From: Candidatus Heimdallarchaeota archaeon
GTDB lineage: Archaea > Asgardarchaeota > Heimdallarchaeia > Heimdallarchaeales > Heimdallarchaeaceae
Direction: 5' to 3'
Assembly: GCA_016840095.1 (NCBI GenBank)
Contig: JAEOSZ010000006.1
Location: 29,200-93,199, forward strand
DNA length: 64,000 nt
This document shows, in pieces, positions 54,207-60,141 of the stretch (the stretch's first letter is position 1; each line of letters opens with the position of its first letter). The translations under genes and the position numbers were made by a program. A model generated the notes under the pieces. It was not told where the DNA came from. It saw only the letters and a program-made list of their open reading frames with translations, and ran no database searches.

Positions 54207-54983
54207 TTATTCTTTGATTTCTTCTTGTAATGGAAAATAAACAGGGAATATTAGGCGTGCGAAACTTTGATACATTTGAACACTATAATCCTTCTGTTCA
54301 ATTAATCCTTCAAGTTTAACTATCTCAGATTCTGTATAACCTTTCATATCCGGGAATTCATCACGGTCGCCATAGTCCATAACCTTGCAGATTATATCGC
54401 CTACTTGTTCCAATTCGAGGTATGATTCAATCAGAATGTGAACATGTGGAGTTAGTTTTTCTGATTGTTCTTCCTCTGCAATTGAATTAGCTATTCTTAC
54501 TACAGAAAGTATTGCTGCTCTTCTAGTAATATAATCTCTTGCATAAACTACATTCTTCAAAGGGTAAAGAACATCAACATCATCCAAATAACCAATTGCC
54601 CTTATTGCTGCATATTGTAGATCATAATCACTTTCTTCAAGTATTTTTACAAGATAAGGTTTAGATGCATAATCTTTCAAATGTCCTAAAACTTCCAATG
54701 TTGAAAGTTTAATTGCTAATGAACTCTTTTCTATAAGATCATGAAGATAATCTAAGATTTTTGTCTTAAGCTCTGGAAACTTTGAAGCAAATTCAACTAG
54801 TGTTGACGCTGCAGCATTTCTTACATTCCAATCAGAATCAACAATAAGTGGGAATATTTTATTGATACTTTTTGCTTTACCATTCTTCTGAATGAATAGA
54901 GCAAAATAAGCTCTATCTAAAGGATCCTCACTTTTTTGTTTTCCACCAATACGTAATTTTCTGAAGAAATTCACCAAACTCAT
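54207..54983 (-). CDS. HEAT/PBS-lyase repeat protein
   Basis: SDWNVRNAAASTLVEFA, SSLAIKLSTLEVLGHLKDYASKPYLVKILEESDYDLQYAAIRAIGYLDD. Confidence 0.85.
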   Translation of the reverse strand: MSLVNFFRKLRIGGKQKSEDPLDRAYFALFIQKNGKAKSINKIFPLIVDSDWNVRNAAASTLVEFASKFPELKTKILDYLHDLIEKSSLAIKLSTLEVLGHLKDYASKPYLVKILEESDYDLQYAAIRAIGYLDDVDVLYPLKNVVYARDYITRRAAILSVVRIANSIAEEEQSEKLTPHVHILIESYLELEQVGDIICKVMDYGDRDEFPDMKGYTESEIVKLEGLIEQKDYSVQMYQSFARLIFPVYFPLQEEIKE

Positions 54984-56554
54984 AATTCAAACAACCCCTC
55001 TTTTATGAGATAGCTTATGGCACCTCTTTGCGGCTGAGTTAGTTTTCTTAAGAAAGTATAATCTATCTTTCTAACTTCAAACCTTTCTTCTTTTTCTTCA
55101 TCTAAATCGAATTTGTAAGCATCTTTCCTCTTTGTAACTTGAACAGCTCTTGTAACGACGGGTAGGTTGTACGGTGATAATGATTTGTACTTTGCTTTAT
55201 GAACTGCAAACAGTGTTGCTACATGGATTCCGCCTATTTTCTTAAAGACTATAATGTCTGCAAAAGCTGGAAGGATTGTTTTGAAGTCATCTCTGTAGAG
55301 TGACATATGATTATGTAGAATAACTAGTTGATCAATTCCTACTCCGTAATCATTAGCCTCGAACACATAGACTTTCTTATCATCCACTTTTACGTAACCT
55401 TTAGAAGAAATTCTAGGTTTATCATCAAGTAATTGACCAAAAGTGGAATATTTCCTTCTGAAAACTTTACTTACATACTCTTCTATTTGTCTCCAACCAT
55501 ATGCATAGACAGACCAAATATCTGTCCATCTGCTTCTAGAAGAGTGCCAGTGTTCAACTACAAACTCTGAATGAGCATTTTTATTGACTGCTTGTAAATC
55601 TTTGATTTCATCCCAAGTAAATTCTTCAAGAAACTCCAAGTCAGACTTAAATGAGATAAGTTTTTGAAAAACAGTTTCCTCATCCTCATATTTAGTTACA
55701 AGCTTGTTCATAGCAGCAAGACTAAATTCTCCAATTGGAGGTGCAAGAAAAGCTTTCAATTCATTAGGATAAATAATAGATCTATCTTCATGTCTGGTTG
55801 GGAGTTTGTACTCTTCTTTCTCTAGCAAATAATCAATAGCTTTCTTCTGGATATAATGAGCAAAACCTTCATCTATAAGTTCGTGAAGATTTTTCTTTCT
55901 TGCTACTTTGGCCCTTTCATTTATCAGATTAATTGCTTCAATTGAGAAATTATTGAAAAGAGTGTATTTTCGAGCATCTTCTGGTGGAGTGTAAAAATCT
56001 TCAACTCCTGCTTCAGTGAATAATCTAATTACACCGATTAAATCTTGGAAATACTGCCAAGCCCAAACGTGTCTGTTCTGTGAAACTTGGTTTAATTGAA
56101 ACACATTATTTGTCATTAATTCTTTGAGAACCAGATCTAATTGGTATAATTGTGCCAATATTCTCGGTGAGTTCGATTCGGTTTTCTCGTTCATGTATGC
56201 ATGAGCAAAGGCATGAATGAGCATTACTCGCAATGTTAATTCTTGTTCCTTAGTAATTTCTCTTGGAGGGACGGAAAGATAAACCAGGGTTGGTAGGGAA
56301 TTATATACTGTCTCTTTCCCTGTAGGAAGGAAATCGCTAATTCTAGCAGATCGAAGGTTAGTAATTTGTTCAGAAGTTAGTATAGCTTGAGGTGTTCCAG
56401 TATCTTCTATTACTCTATTAATTGAGATATGCATTTCTGGATTAACAAAAATCAGAATCCTGTAATTTTCTGGAGTTTCTCCGACTAGAGTTTTAAAGTC
56501 CTCTCTAGCTTTGTTATAAACCTCTATTACATCACTTAGTTCTTCTTTAAGCAT
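54980..56554 (-). CDS. Uncharacterised 524-aa protein with degenerate gluzincin-like signature
   Basis: LRVMLIHAFAHAYMNE (HxxxH with the Glu replaced by Ala) and NLHELIDEGFAHYIQKKAI (EGxAxY-like); overlaps both neighbours in a tight operon. Confidence 0.6.
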   Translation of the reverse strand: MLKEELSDVIEVYNKAREDFKTLVGETPENYRILIFVNPEMHISINRVIEDTGTPQAILTSEQITNLRSARISDFLPTGKETVYNSLPTLVYLSVPPREITKEQELTLRVMLIHAFAHAYMNEKTESNSPRILAQLYQLDLVLKELMTNNVFQLNQVSQNRHVWAWQYFQDLIGVIRLFTEAGVEDFYTPPEDARKYTLFNNFSIEAINLINERAKVARKKNLHELIDEGFAHYIQKKAIDYLLEKEEYKLPTRHEDRSIIYPNELKAFLAPPIGEFSLAAMNKLVTKYEDEETVFQKLISFKSDLEFLEEFTWDEIKDLQAVNKNAHSEFVVEHWHSSRSRWTDIWSVYAYGWRQIEEYVSKVFRRKYSTFGQLLDDKPRISSKGYVKVDDKKVYVFEANDYGVGIDQLVILHNHMSLYRDDFKTILPAFADIIVFKKIGGIHVATLFAVHKAKYKSLSPYNLPVVTRAVQVTKRKDAYKFDLDEEKEERFEVRKIDYTFLRKLTQPQRGAISYLIKEGLFEL

Positions 56555-57932
56555 GAATTATACTCTCCCTTAATATTTGCTCACCCAAATTCTTGATTTG
56601 TGCGGGATCTATTAGAATTGGTTTTGTAATACCTTTCAACATTTGTTTTGTATGTATGTAGATTTCTTTATTTCGTAATGCCTCAGTACCCATCAAGAAG
56701 TATGAGATATTCCAATTTCTGGAACGATCACCTTTCAATGAACTAAAAATTGCGTTCAACTGCTGTAAACATTCCCTAGTATCGGCGTTTGTTTTTGTTT
56801 CAACTTCATCAAAGTATCGTTTAAGTTCCCTGCTTTTCTTATATTCGAAAGGATAGACAGGAACATTGGGCATTCCATCTGTTACAATGGTAAATTGTAC
56901 ATCTATGTCTTTGTCTGTGTGTTGCTTTTTAGCATGTTCTATAGCTGTGATTATACTCTGAACCATGTGTGTTTTTCCTCTTGCTTCAGCAGTAAGAAGA
57001 AGTTGTTCCATTTTTTTATCATCATCAACCACAAAAGGATTCTTAATAATCGGAACAACTGCAAGTTTAAACATATCAAAACGTTTTCTCTTTCTTCTAT
57101 TAATCATTTTAAAATAGTAATAGAGACTAAGACTTGTTAACAGAGCGCCATCCAATCTAGACATTTTTCCTTCAAAAACAGTTTTTTTCATGGATTGACT
57201 CATATCAACTATGAGATAAACCAAAGATCTACGATCCTTTTTTATTCTTACAATGTCTTCTTGTTTAACTTTCGAAGGAGGGACAGTCTGGGAACTTAGA
57301 ATTGCACTCTTATAGGTTTCTTTTAGGCGAATTGAACCTCGAGGTCTTTTTTGAACTTCATCAATGGGTGCAACAGAAATCTGTTTCATCAGATATCTGC
57401 CTAAAATCTTCCCTAGAAGATCCATTACACTTTCTCTAGATATTCTTTTCTTCCTACCAAATGCATCAGTTATTTCAATGTCAACAATTTCAGTTAATTG
57501 ATTTAGTTTCTCTGCTAATTGTTGGAGGTCTACAGTTGCTTCATGCTTAAGCTCTTTTAGAAGTTCCTGGATATACTTGAGAATTTCCTCAACAGTCTGT
57601 AATTCATTTCTGTTGACTCTCTCTAGTACATCAGGCAGAACTCTTTCTCCAATAAATCGGAGAAGCTTCATTTCATTTATTAGTCGATCCTCTTCTTCGG
57701 CTGTAAGAAAAGTATTCATAATTTTTTGAACGATATTGTCAATTGCAACAGCATTTTTAGCAGCGATAGATAAGACAGCACCTTCTCGAGAACTTCTACC
57801 AAGATGTGGATTCCTCCATAAACGTAGTACTTGTGCAGCATCTTCAAATTCTAAAACAAACTCTTGATTAGAATAATGCTGCAGAGGATCTGCAAATTCT
57901 GTTTCTGTTACGAAATATATTCGGTGGGGCAT
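56547..57932 (-). CDS. VWA-domain protein with intact MIDAS (ChlD/CobT/YeaH-like)
   Basis: VYLIVDMSQSMKKT (DxSxS), ARGKTHMVQSI (Thr), TIVTDGMPN (Asp). Confidence 0.88.
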   Translation of the reverse strand: MPHRIYFVTETEFADPLQHYSNQEFVLEFEDAAQVLRLWRNPHLGRSSREGAVLSIAAKNAVAIDNIVQKIMNTFLTAEEEDRLINEMKLLRFIGERVLPDVLERVNRNELQTVEEILKYIQELLKELKHEATVDLQQLAEKLNQLTEIVDIEITDAFGRKKRISRESVMDLLGKILGRYLMKQISVAPIDEVQKRPRGSIRLKETYKSAILSSQTVPPSKVKQEDIVRIKKDRRSLVYLIVDMSQSMKKTVFEGKMSRLDGALLTSLSLYYYFKMINRRKRKRFDMFKLAVVPIIKNPFVVDDDKKMEQLLLTAEARGKTHMVQSIITAIEHAKKQHTDKDIDVQFTIVTDGMPNVPVYPFEYKKSRELKRYFDEVETKTNADTRECLQQLNAIFSSLKGDRSRNWNISYFLMGTEALRNKEIYIHTKQMLKGITKPILIDPAQIKNLGEQILRESIIHA

Positions 57933-57970: not shown

Positions 57971-59521
57971 TTAAATATAATCTACTCTGAGTAACTGTTC
58001 ATATGATGGTTTTAGTTTTTCCACTACTTGGTTTCGAATGTTTTCTTTATATTTATCCAAGCCTTCAAATTTCACTACTAGTTCTGCTAATTCAGCATCA
58101 CTTAATGCTTTCATTTTAGATATGTCTTCAGATATATCTTGAACATTAATAGAAACGTCTGATTCTTTGATAGATGTTCGTAAAACAATCTTAATTTGTT
58201 GTAGCGCATCGTTAATCATAGAAACTGGAACATCATATGCATCCATTGTACTTCTTATTCTTTCCAATGTAATCACGTTGATATCCTTTGTTTCGTCTTC
58301 TCTTGCTTGAAGCAAAACTGTTTCTCCTATGATATTGTTCATAGTACGAAGATCAATATGGGGATTTCTCTGAGGATCATGAATTTCATCAAGACCAGAA
58401 TAAAAGTCACTTCTAGCCATTCTGCTTTCAGAACGAATACCTTTTCTTTTTAGATTCTCTGGAAGTGAATTATTTCCTAAGAATGCTAGAAAATCAACTG
58501 CTAATCTACTAACAAAATCAGTAGTTTCTTTTTCCAATTCATGAAGTTGAATAATTGAGGGATTAGCTGTAATTTTTCTTCTGGATAGAATGATTTGTTC
58601 CTCAAACATATCTTTGATGATTTGCTCTCTGCTTTCAACAGAACGAGCAGGCCATAGAACTTCAGGAATACGATTAATGATTGGCTGACTTTCTTCACCA
58701 AAAACTGTCAAAGGAGCATTTGAGGTGAAAAGAACAGCACCATCAATGTATACTGGTTCACCTTGAATATTATACTTAATACCCATAGGTTCTTCAAGAA
58801 AACCCATCAGGGATTCTAATAGGCTTAGTGGTAGTCTCTGTATTTCATTAACAACAATAAAACCATGAGATAGAACTCCTACTTTATGTGAAGTTGCAGC
58901 ATATGTGGTTGATGTATCTTTTCCGAATAGTTCTTCTAGATTTTCTACACCAGCAAGAAGCATGTATAAACTTTCAGGATCAGTTCTTGGATCTAGTTGA
59001 GCTCTTCTTACTATGGTTTTAGTGGCTCCAAGTTTGCCTAATCGATTGACTACTTCTTTTGGAGGAATTTCAAGAACACTATTGGTATTATCTAAATCAA
59101 CTTCATTTCCATCAGCAGCAAGAATTGTTTCAATGTTATTTCTACAATATGGACAGAGAGATTGCATTACACGAATTCCAGCAAAAGGATTCGCAGGGAA
59201 ATTGTTCATTACATCTATTATATATCCAGCATCCTCTAAGAATGGACATCCTTCAATATGATATTTAAAGTTGTTAATCTCCCTAACAACGTGATCTAAC
59301 AATATTCTAGCAAACAAAGATTTGGCTTCACCAGTTGGACCAGTAAGAAGAACTTTACCTCCTACTGCTAACTTATCCATTACTACGTTCTTACCAATTT
59401 CATTTCCTCTAACGCTGACATCTTTTGAGACTCTATCACGGAATTCAGGATTCATAAGGATAGACCGAACAGAAAATCCTACATAATTATCCTTCATTAA
59501 TTTCTGTATTGTGAGTGTCAT
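57971..59521 (-). CDS. AAA+ ATPase, MoxR/PrkA-like, with Cys-rich insertion
   Basis: Walker A VLLTGPTGEAKSLFARIL; insertion GCPFLEDAGYIID...GIRVMQSLCPYCRNNIE; Walker B region HGFIVVNEIQRLPLSLLESLMGFLEEP; sensor LFTSNAPL. Confidence 0.88.
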   Translation of the reverse strand: MTLTIQKLMKDNYVGFSVRSILMNPEFRDRVSKDVSVRGNEIGKNVVMDKLAVGGKVLLTGPTGEAKSLFARILLDHVVREINNFKYHIEGCPFLEDAGYIIDVMNNFPANPFAGIRVMQSLCPYCRNNIETILAADGNEVDLDNTNSVLEIPPKEVVNRLGKLGATKTIVRRAQLDPRTDPESLYMLLAGVENLEELFGKDTSTTYAATSHKVGVLSHGFIVVNEIQRLPLSLLESLMGFLEEPMGIKYNIQGEPVYIDGAVLFTSNAPLTVFGEESQPIINRIPEVLWPARSVESREQIIKDMFEEQIILSRRKITANPSIIQLHELEKETTDFVSRLAVDFLAFLGNNSLPENLKRKGIRSESRMARSDFYSGLDEIHDPQRNPHIDLRTMNNIIGETVLLQAREDETKDINVITLERIRSTMDAYDVPVSMINDALQQIKIVLRTSIKESDVSINVQDISEDISKMKALSDAELAELVVKFEGLDKYKENIRNQVVEKLKPSYEQLLRVDYI

Positions 59522-59538: not shown

Positions 59539-60141
59539 TTATATATTTTGATCATTTTCTTCTTCTGTAGCAAATTGAACTTGCACAGGTTTGATTTTTT
59601 CTAATAATTTTTCTTTTTCTTCCCAAGACTTTACATGTCCAATATGTATTACTCTCTTTAACCATTTGAGAGCTTCAAGTAAATTAGGTACTTCTGGTAC
59701 TTCAAAGAGGTTCCATAACCTATCAGTTAAGCGAATTAGAGATAGATTTTCAATTAATTCTCCACGAGATAAAGCTCCTTGGAGGTTTGAATTGTAAGCA
59801 CAGATAGCAATTGGAAGACTTTTTGTTTCTGAATCCCAAATTACCTTTTCCCAGAAATAGTTTCTTTCGTGCTTAATCATTTCCTCTTTGGTTGCGTCAA
59901 TTAGATATAACAGTCCTTCAAATGGAACAAATTGCTTATGCTTGAATTTGAACCCTAAAGAATATGGTAATTCAGTGAGTGAACTATCCAATATAAATTC
60001 TGAGAGAGATGTACTTGATCTCATCAACAAGATTCTATTTCTAGTAGCAGGGATATTATCACCTAAAACTAAAATAGATACCTCTGGGTAACCTAGTCTT
60101 CTTTTAAGGGATTTTTTCCAATTCTGAACAAAGCTAGTCAT
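59539..60141 (-). CDS. Arf/Ras-like GTPase-fold protein lacking canonical G motifs (pseudoGTPase)
   Basis: EVSILVLGDNIPATRNRILLMRSS (P-loop position without GK[ST]), FEGLLYLIDATKEE, LPIAICAYNSNLQGALSRGELIENLSLIRLTDRLWNLFEV (NKxD position YNSN), LLEALKWLKRVI. Confidence 0.65.
   Translation of the reverse strand: MTSFVQNWKKSLKRRLGYPEVSILVLGDNIPATRNRILLMRSSTSLSEFILDSSLTELPYSLGFKFKHKQFVPFEGLLYLIDATKEEMIKHERNYFWEKVIWDSETKSLPIAICAYNSNLQGALSRGELIENLSLIRLTDRLWNLFEVPEVPNLLEALKWLKRVIHIGHVKSWEEKEKLLEKIKPVQVQFATEEENDQNI

Follow-up and report, generated by a model that had tools for sequence, protein, structure and literature searches.

The 64,000-nucleotide stretch of contig JAEOSZ010000006.1 from Candidatus Heimdallarchaeota archaeon (assembly GCA_016840095.1, positions 29,200 to 93,199), called the window in the following, carries an open reading frame (ORF) at 59539-60141 on the minus strand. 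It encodes a protein of 200 amino acids, which is named pseudo-Arf here. By the evidence of its sequence the ORF belongs by descent to the Arf family, but its product is an Arf-derived protein and not an Arf GTPase, lacking the motifs G1, G3, G4 and G5. Pseudo-Arf is an ancient, maintained pseudoGTPase of the class i type, which is predicted to be nucleotide-free. It is probably a stably kept part of a module with a PrkA-like AAA+ protein, a VWA protein, a putative SpoVR-like protein and a HEAT-repeat protein, in which it would serve as a fixed adaptor.

Arf ancestry and loss of the nucleotide-binding motifs

The ORF starts with ATG, and all peptides quoted in an earlier sequence-only reading of this DNA are present in its translation. 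Arf (PF00025) is the sole Pfam family matched by pseudo-Arf, with 26.2 bits (cut-off 22.3, E 6e-6) over residues 71-163; a search with the single sequence misses the N-terminal half, which has diverged too far. A profile built from 23 pseudo-Arf sequences (A2) was compared with the PDB. The best match was Arf1 (3lrp, E 2.2e-11), covering positions 3-152 of the 174 profile positions, and of the top 60 matches almost every one is named Arf or Arl. When the pseudo-Arf profile was aligned with 17 intact Asgard Arfs using hhalign, 98.4% was reached (E 9.5e-15, 169 columns), with the peptide SILVLGDN falling on beta1 and the first glycine of the P-loop. In length, element order and C-terminal half the protein resembles the Arf/Arl small GTPases (PF00025), including the intact Arf-like proteins of Asgard archaea. 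Its Ras-like fold is predicted from profile homology alone. No relative of pseudo-Arf was found among the viral contigs searched.

In contrast to Arf/Arl GTPases, the protein has a shortened and unconserved switch region and no recognizable nucleotide-binding motif. The P-loop position reads LGDNIPATRN and not GxxxxGK[ST], and alignment to intact Arfs places the lost P-loop at residues 27-36 (GDNIPATRNR; 60034-60063, minus strand). In the same alignment none of DxxG (G3), NKxD (G4) and G5 was found in the window protein, where AYNSN stands at the place of NKxD. The genome of the window and the families f1, f2, f3, f4 and f6, in which orthologs were identified, all belong to one class (Heimdall group). 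Neither G1 nor a correctly placed G3 or G4 is present in any of the 24 orthologs and near-orthologs, the divergent member of f4 included. Five orthologs contain strings resembling G4 (TKED, TKMD, NKVD and twice NKKD), which were discounted, as they sit elsewhere in the protein. The P-loop is replaced by GDNxPATRNR in f1, by GEKxxxRDYI in f6 and by G(K/N)TxPL in f3, where the loop is about 4 residues shorter.

In a census of Arf-like proteins made over stretches of the window's genome, the P-loop is kept by 40 of 42 matches. Besides pseudo-Arf, the sole Arf-like match without a P-loop (L243, G000 C85:21415-21900) is marginal and lies below the Pfam cut-off; it may be a degenerate GTPase or a chance match.

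Age, selection and sequence constraint

The pseudo-Arf gene was found in more than 30 independent genomes, and the motif loss is present in every one that was aligned. In the phylogenetic tree the 24 orthologs and near-orthologs are split from intact Arfs by one branch with a support of 100/100, the placement of subgroups among themselves being unsure owing to long branches. A single loss of the nucleotide site before the studied families diverged is shown by the comparison of the sequences, and the tree agrees with one loss and subsequent divergence. The ratio of nonsynonymous to synonymous substitution rates (dN/dS) of the window gene is 0.08-0.15 when compared with members of its genus. Because the motif loss is shared by orthologs that form a single clade, dN/dS is close to 0.1 and 40 of the 42 Arf-like matches of the genome are intact, the protein is regarded as a maintained pseudoGTPase and not as a decaying gene. 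An artefact of frame or start is excluded, since the open frame spans just 203 codons from stop to stop and the gene is present in more than 30 independent genomes, all aligned copies showing the motif loss.

The sequence-only reading had proposed an Arf layout without P-loop, DxxGQ switch II and NKxD (replaced by YNSN), retained as a pseudoGTPase that would serve in protein interaction. The layout is borne out by the Pfam match to Arf, the profile match to Arf1 and the hhalign comparison with intact Asgard Arfs, and the absence of all three motifs was confirmed by alignment. An alignment of orthologs, which had been suggested as a check, revealed a conserved loss, with no intact G1 or G4 in any of the 24 sequences. 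The retention is likewise supported by this shared loss, the single clade and the low dN/dS.

The most conserved stretch of pseudo-Arf comprises residues 120-148 (LQGALSRGELIENLSLIRLTDRLWNLFEV; 59698-59784, minus strand), which correspond to alpha4-loop-beta6 of Arf. Its mean column identity across the class is 68%, compared with 37-49% for other regions, and the residues W97, L124, E131, L135, R137, D140 and R141 of the protein are invariant class-wide. Unlike in Arf/Arl GTPases, alpha4-beta6 is therefore the most conserved surface, and by column identity and invariant residues it is a candidate docking face. The former switch region is the least conserved part. Residues 1-17 (60091-60141, minus strand) form an amphipathic, basic segment that is a possible membrane anchor, with a hydrophobic moment over residues 4-14 of 0.74 in the window protein and 0.73-0.98 across its genus. 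Membrane-binding Arfs have an amphipathic N-terminus as well.

In one ortholog (L011, 8001-8600) a TAA lies three codons ahead of the end of the window protein, which is a harmless variation in length. Family f5, in which the module is absent, carries two intact Arf genes in tandem (L077 2297-3421, L078, L079, L085, L086), one of which is the best intact match to pseudo-Arf. A similar pair of intact Arf genes is found in f7 (L076).

The operon and its comparison with PrkA-YeaH-SpoVR

Pseudo-Arf is the first gene of an operon with the order ARF-AAA-VWA-P524-HEAT, all on the minus strand. After a gap of 17 nt it is followed by the gene of the PrkA-like AAA+ protein (516 amino acids, 57971-59521) and, after a further 38 nt, by that of the VWA protein (461 amino acids, 56547-57932). 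The gene of P524, a protein of 524 amino acids (54980-56554), overlaps the VWA gene by 8 nt and is itself overlapped by 4 nt by the gene of the HEAT-repeat protein (258 amino acids, 54207-54983; Pfam HEAT_2, E 1.7e-15). The same order of five genes, all in one orientation and either overlapping or separated by short gaps, was also found in f1, in f6 and at five loci of f3; contig ends truncate some of these loci. In the 197 genomes of the phylum, pseudo-Arf and the AAA gene occur together in 35, the AAA gene alone in two and pseudo-Arf alone in another two, the rest having neither.

The AAA+ protein was assigned by its Walker motifs, its insert signature and hhalign. It contains the Walker A motif GPTGEAKS, the Walker B-like motif VVNEIQR and the insert YHIEGCPFLED...LCPYC. 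Bacterial PrkA bears the signature YAIKGCPMHEDP, and LCPxC is present in some bacterial PrkA, the elements common to both being YxIxGCPxxED...LCPxC. Pairwise hhalign comparisons, which are not database-calibrated and were controlled with shuffled or reversed profiles and other AAA+ proteins, gave 67.9 (E 8e-8, 474 columns) for the AAA+ protein with the PrkA family profile, block-shuffled nulls reaching at most 28.5. For single proteins the values were 77.9 with Priestia PrkA, 63.0 with Paenibacillus PrkA, 36.9 with RavA and 37.0 with NorR. A tblastn search of 72,556 plasmids returned three weak matches (best E 0.04), two of which lie within prkA genes. The AAA+ core can thus firmly be placed nearer to PrkA than to the other AAA+ families compared. 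Single sequences of YeaG, YeaH and YcgB from E. coli gave uninformative comparisons, and family profiles with controls were used instead. The PDB search with the AAA+ and P524 profiles found nothing. Across the AAA+ family the Walker A motif is GPTGEAK[ST], and an asparagine in place of the aspartate is conserved in the Walker B-like motif; judged by these residues, ATPase activity may be altered.

The VWA protein is matched by Pfam VWA and has an intact-looking metal-ion-dependent adhesion site (DMSQSM). A relationship to YeaH/DUF444 is supported by an hhalign value of 33.6 (E 0.002, null maximum 21.4), YeaH being the best of three possible partners, and comparison of its profile with the PDB gave weak, generic VWA matches only. 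For P524 a remote relationship to SpoVR can tentatively be suggested from its operon position and from hhalign, in which SpoVR was the best of the three partners. The strings LIHAFAHA, DEGFAHY and YAYGW were found by eye in the order of the SpoVR motifs HACYGH, NEGWATF and NPYALGF, only the second of which is recovered in register by hhalign. The SpoVR-type motifs (HxxxxGH, NEGWA, NPYxxGF) are partly present in f1 and eroded in f3. In other Asgard families (L163-L166; G066, G074, G082), open frames of about 1300 amino acids include a SpoVR-like part below the Pfam cut-off, which in L163 reads AAHEKYGHG, SEGFAKW and NPYTYGF.

A three-gene operon of prkA, a VWA (DUF444) gene and spoVR is known from bacteria (PMC3188799), and the triplet ycgB-yeaH-yeaG is co-conserved (PMC2375023). 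PrkA, DUF444 and SpoVR genes also stand together in haloarchaea, and a comparison from 2011 listed such clusters as common to the haloarchaea without exception and absent from the remaining archaea (PMC3102087). The Heimdall operon shares with the prkA-yeaH(yhbH)-spoVR(ycgB) operon the order of AAA gene, VWA gene and a third gene for a protein of about 500 amino acids (PMC3188799, PMC3102087, PMC2375023), as well as the AAA signature YxIxGCPxxED with LCPxC. It differs in that the AAA+ protein has 516 amino acids, whereas the intact bacterial PrkA proteins compared have 631-650, that P524 keeps little of SpoVR, and that the HEAT and pseudo-Arf genes are extra. The operon would therefore represent a remote PrkA-YeaH-SpoVR-like module, in which the relationship of the AAA+ protein to PrkA is firm, that of the VWA protein to YeaH is supported and that of P524 to SpoVR is tentative. 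The sequence-only reading had tied the gene to an AAA+/VWA operon; this linkage holds and is conserved in several families, but the likeness of the AAA+ protein to PrkA and the order prkA-yeaH-spoVR had been missed.

Additional genes adjoin the operon in two families. In f3 (L064, L066, L068-L072) pseudo-Arf repeatedly has as neighbours a gene encoding a signal-peptide-like protein of about 215 amino acids and one encoding a protein of about 250 amino acids, both of which are possible further partners. In f6 (L073-L075, L080, L083) the divergent side of the operon carries an actin/MreB-like gene along with several genes that are conserved.

Proposed role, alternatives and significance

Class i pseudoGTPases such as p190RhoGAP pG1/pG2, CENP-M and fungal dynein LIC are GTPase-like proteins without G motifs, which are predicted to be nucleotide-free and presumed to act as scaffolds (PMC5593906). 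CENP-M and fungal dynein LIC are precedents without nucleotide binding (PMC5593906). Pseudo-Arf likewise is a GTPase homologue without G motifs that is conserved and under selection, its fold being assigned by homology only. In contrast to these eukaryotic proteins it is archaeal, stand-alone, Arf-derived and encoded with an AAA+ module. A role as fixed adaptor is suggested because an Arf fold without nucleotide would be unable to switch. The alpha4-beta6 face (ELIENLSLIRLTDRLW) may dock on a partner in the module, most likely the AAA+ protein of the adjoining gene or the VWA protein, and in the genus of the window the N-terminal helix, which is amphipathic and basic, may tether the assembly to the membrane. 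The PrkA-like ring would then remodel, driven by ATP, targets that are gathered by VWA, P524 and HEAT. Starvation or stress, as for bacterial yeaGH, is suggested as the setting, since yeaG and yeaH of E. coli act in sustained nitrogen starvation (PMC4664914) and the triplet ycgB-yeaH-yeaG is co-conserved. With somewhat less than an even chance, this Arf without nucleotide has become a fixed structural subunit for docking in such a PrkA-like AAA+ stress-remodelling machine, where it works as a lasting scaffold in place of a switch.

Several observations weigh against this picture. Pseudo-Arf lies about 1.8 kb from the AAA operon or on another contig in genus g5 of f3, on a different contig in f2, and in f4 either a degenerate pseudo-Arf is located about 9 kb off within the same contig or none was found. 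All co-occurrence is within one class and could be explained by common descent. The E. coli PrkA alone reached an hhalign value of only 27 with the AAA+ profile, and none of the PrkA Pfam models (AAA_PrkA PF08298 and PF06798, with the C-terminal kinase-like domain) matches the AAA+ protein, which is why it is named PrkA-like and not PrkA. DUF444 stays below the Pfam threshold in the VWA protein. For P524, the hhalign value with SpoVR (28.9) is barely above the shuffles (null maximum 25.1), and no meaningful match came from Pfam or NCBIfam, SpoVR (PF04293) being below threshold. The AlphaFold2 model from 17 genus-level orthologs, a shallow alignment, had a predicted local distance difference test score of 38 and was not used. 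Furthermore, the pseudo-Arfs of f6 are without the amphipathic N-terminal helix, so that membrane binding is at most a trait of some families.

The separate location of the gene in g5, f2 and f4 would also fit a pseudo-Arf that acts alone or with other proteins, e.g., as decoy or regulator of intact Arf-like GTPases, of which the window's genome offers about 40 as potential partners, the operon reflecting co-expression only. This is rather unlikely in view of the tight same-strand linkage in f1, f6 and the five f3 loci, the presence of both genes in 35 of the 39 genomes that have either, and the switch face, which guanine nucleotide exchange factors and GTPase-activating proteins of intact Arfs would read but which is the least conserved part of pseudo-Arf. 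It also seems improbable that a rebuilt site still binds nucleotide or another small ligand, as in class ii or iii pseudoGTPases. At least 90% of 23 sequences retain G27, P31, T33, R34, N35 and R36 are invariant in 17 members of the genus and GDNxPATRNR is conserved there, but the replacement motif is wholly different between families, the f3 loop is shorter, and G3, G4 and G5 are absent as well.

An AAA+ protein with a VWA partner in one operon is also the hallmark of MoxR-vWA systems, such as RavA-ViaA or the ternary VMAP systems (PMC7159879), and the Pfam models that match the AAA+ protein are general (Sigma54_activat, AAA_5). The operon could thus be of this type, perhaps with a role in defence, and the likeness to PrkA a general AAA+ likeness. 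This is similarly improbable, as hhalign gave 63-78 for two PrkA proteins compared with 37 for RavA and NorR, and the signature GCPxxED/LCPxC, the PrkA hits among the open-search matches (two of three) and the gene order point to PrkA. Being much closer to PrkA than to the MoxR-type RavA, the AAA+ protein falls outside the MoxR clade that characterizes VMAP systems. No variable effector domains were seen in the orthologous operons, and matches to the defence library were just weak and generic. Finally, local gene decay, a frameshift or a metagenome assembly error might be expected from a draft genome of 165 contigs (89% complete, 8% contaminated), but is refuted by the same loss in all orthologs of independent genomes and the dN/dS of about 0.1, and retains hardly any probability. 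The reading as a fixed adaptor of the module is preferred.

Asgard archaea have large sets of small GTPases, and discussions of how eukaryotes arose usually treat these proteins as switches. With pseudo-Arf, a clear and ancient pseudoGTPase derived from Arf, a part of this set does not consist of switches; the literature searched contained no paper on pseudoGTPases of Asgard archaea. The PrkA-YeaH-SpoVR module would gain a remote version in Asgard archaea, in which it has new partners (compare PMC3102087). Its biochemistry is unsettled even in bacteria, and the archaeal version with pseudo-Arf and HEAT offers a new handle on it. If the proposed role is true, the Arf fold would serve as a permanent scaffold in an archaeal group that is counted among the closest relatives of eukaryotes.
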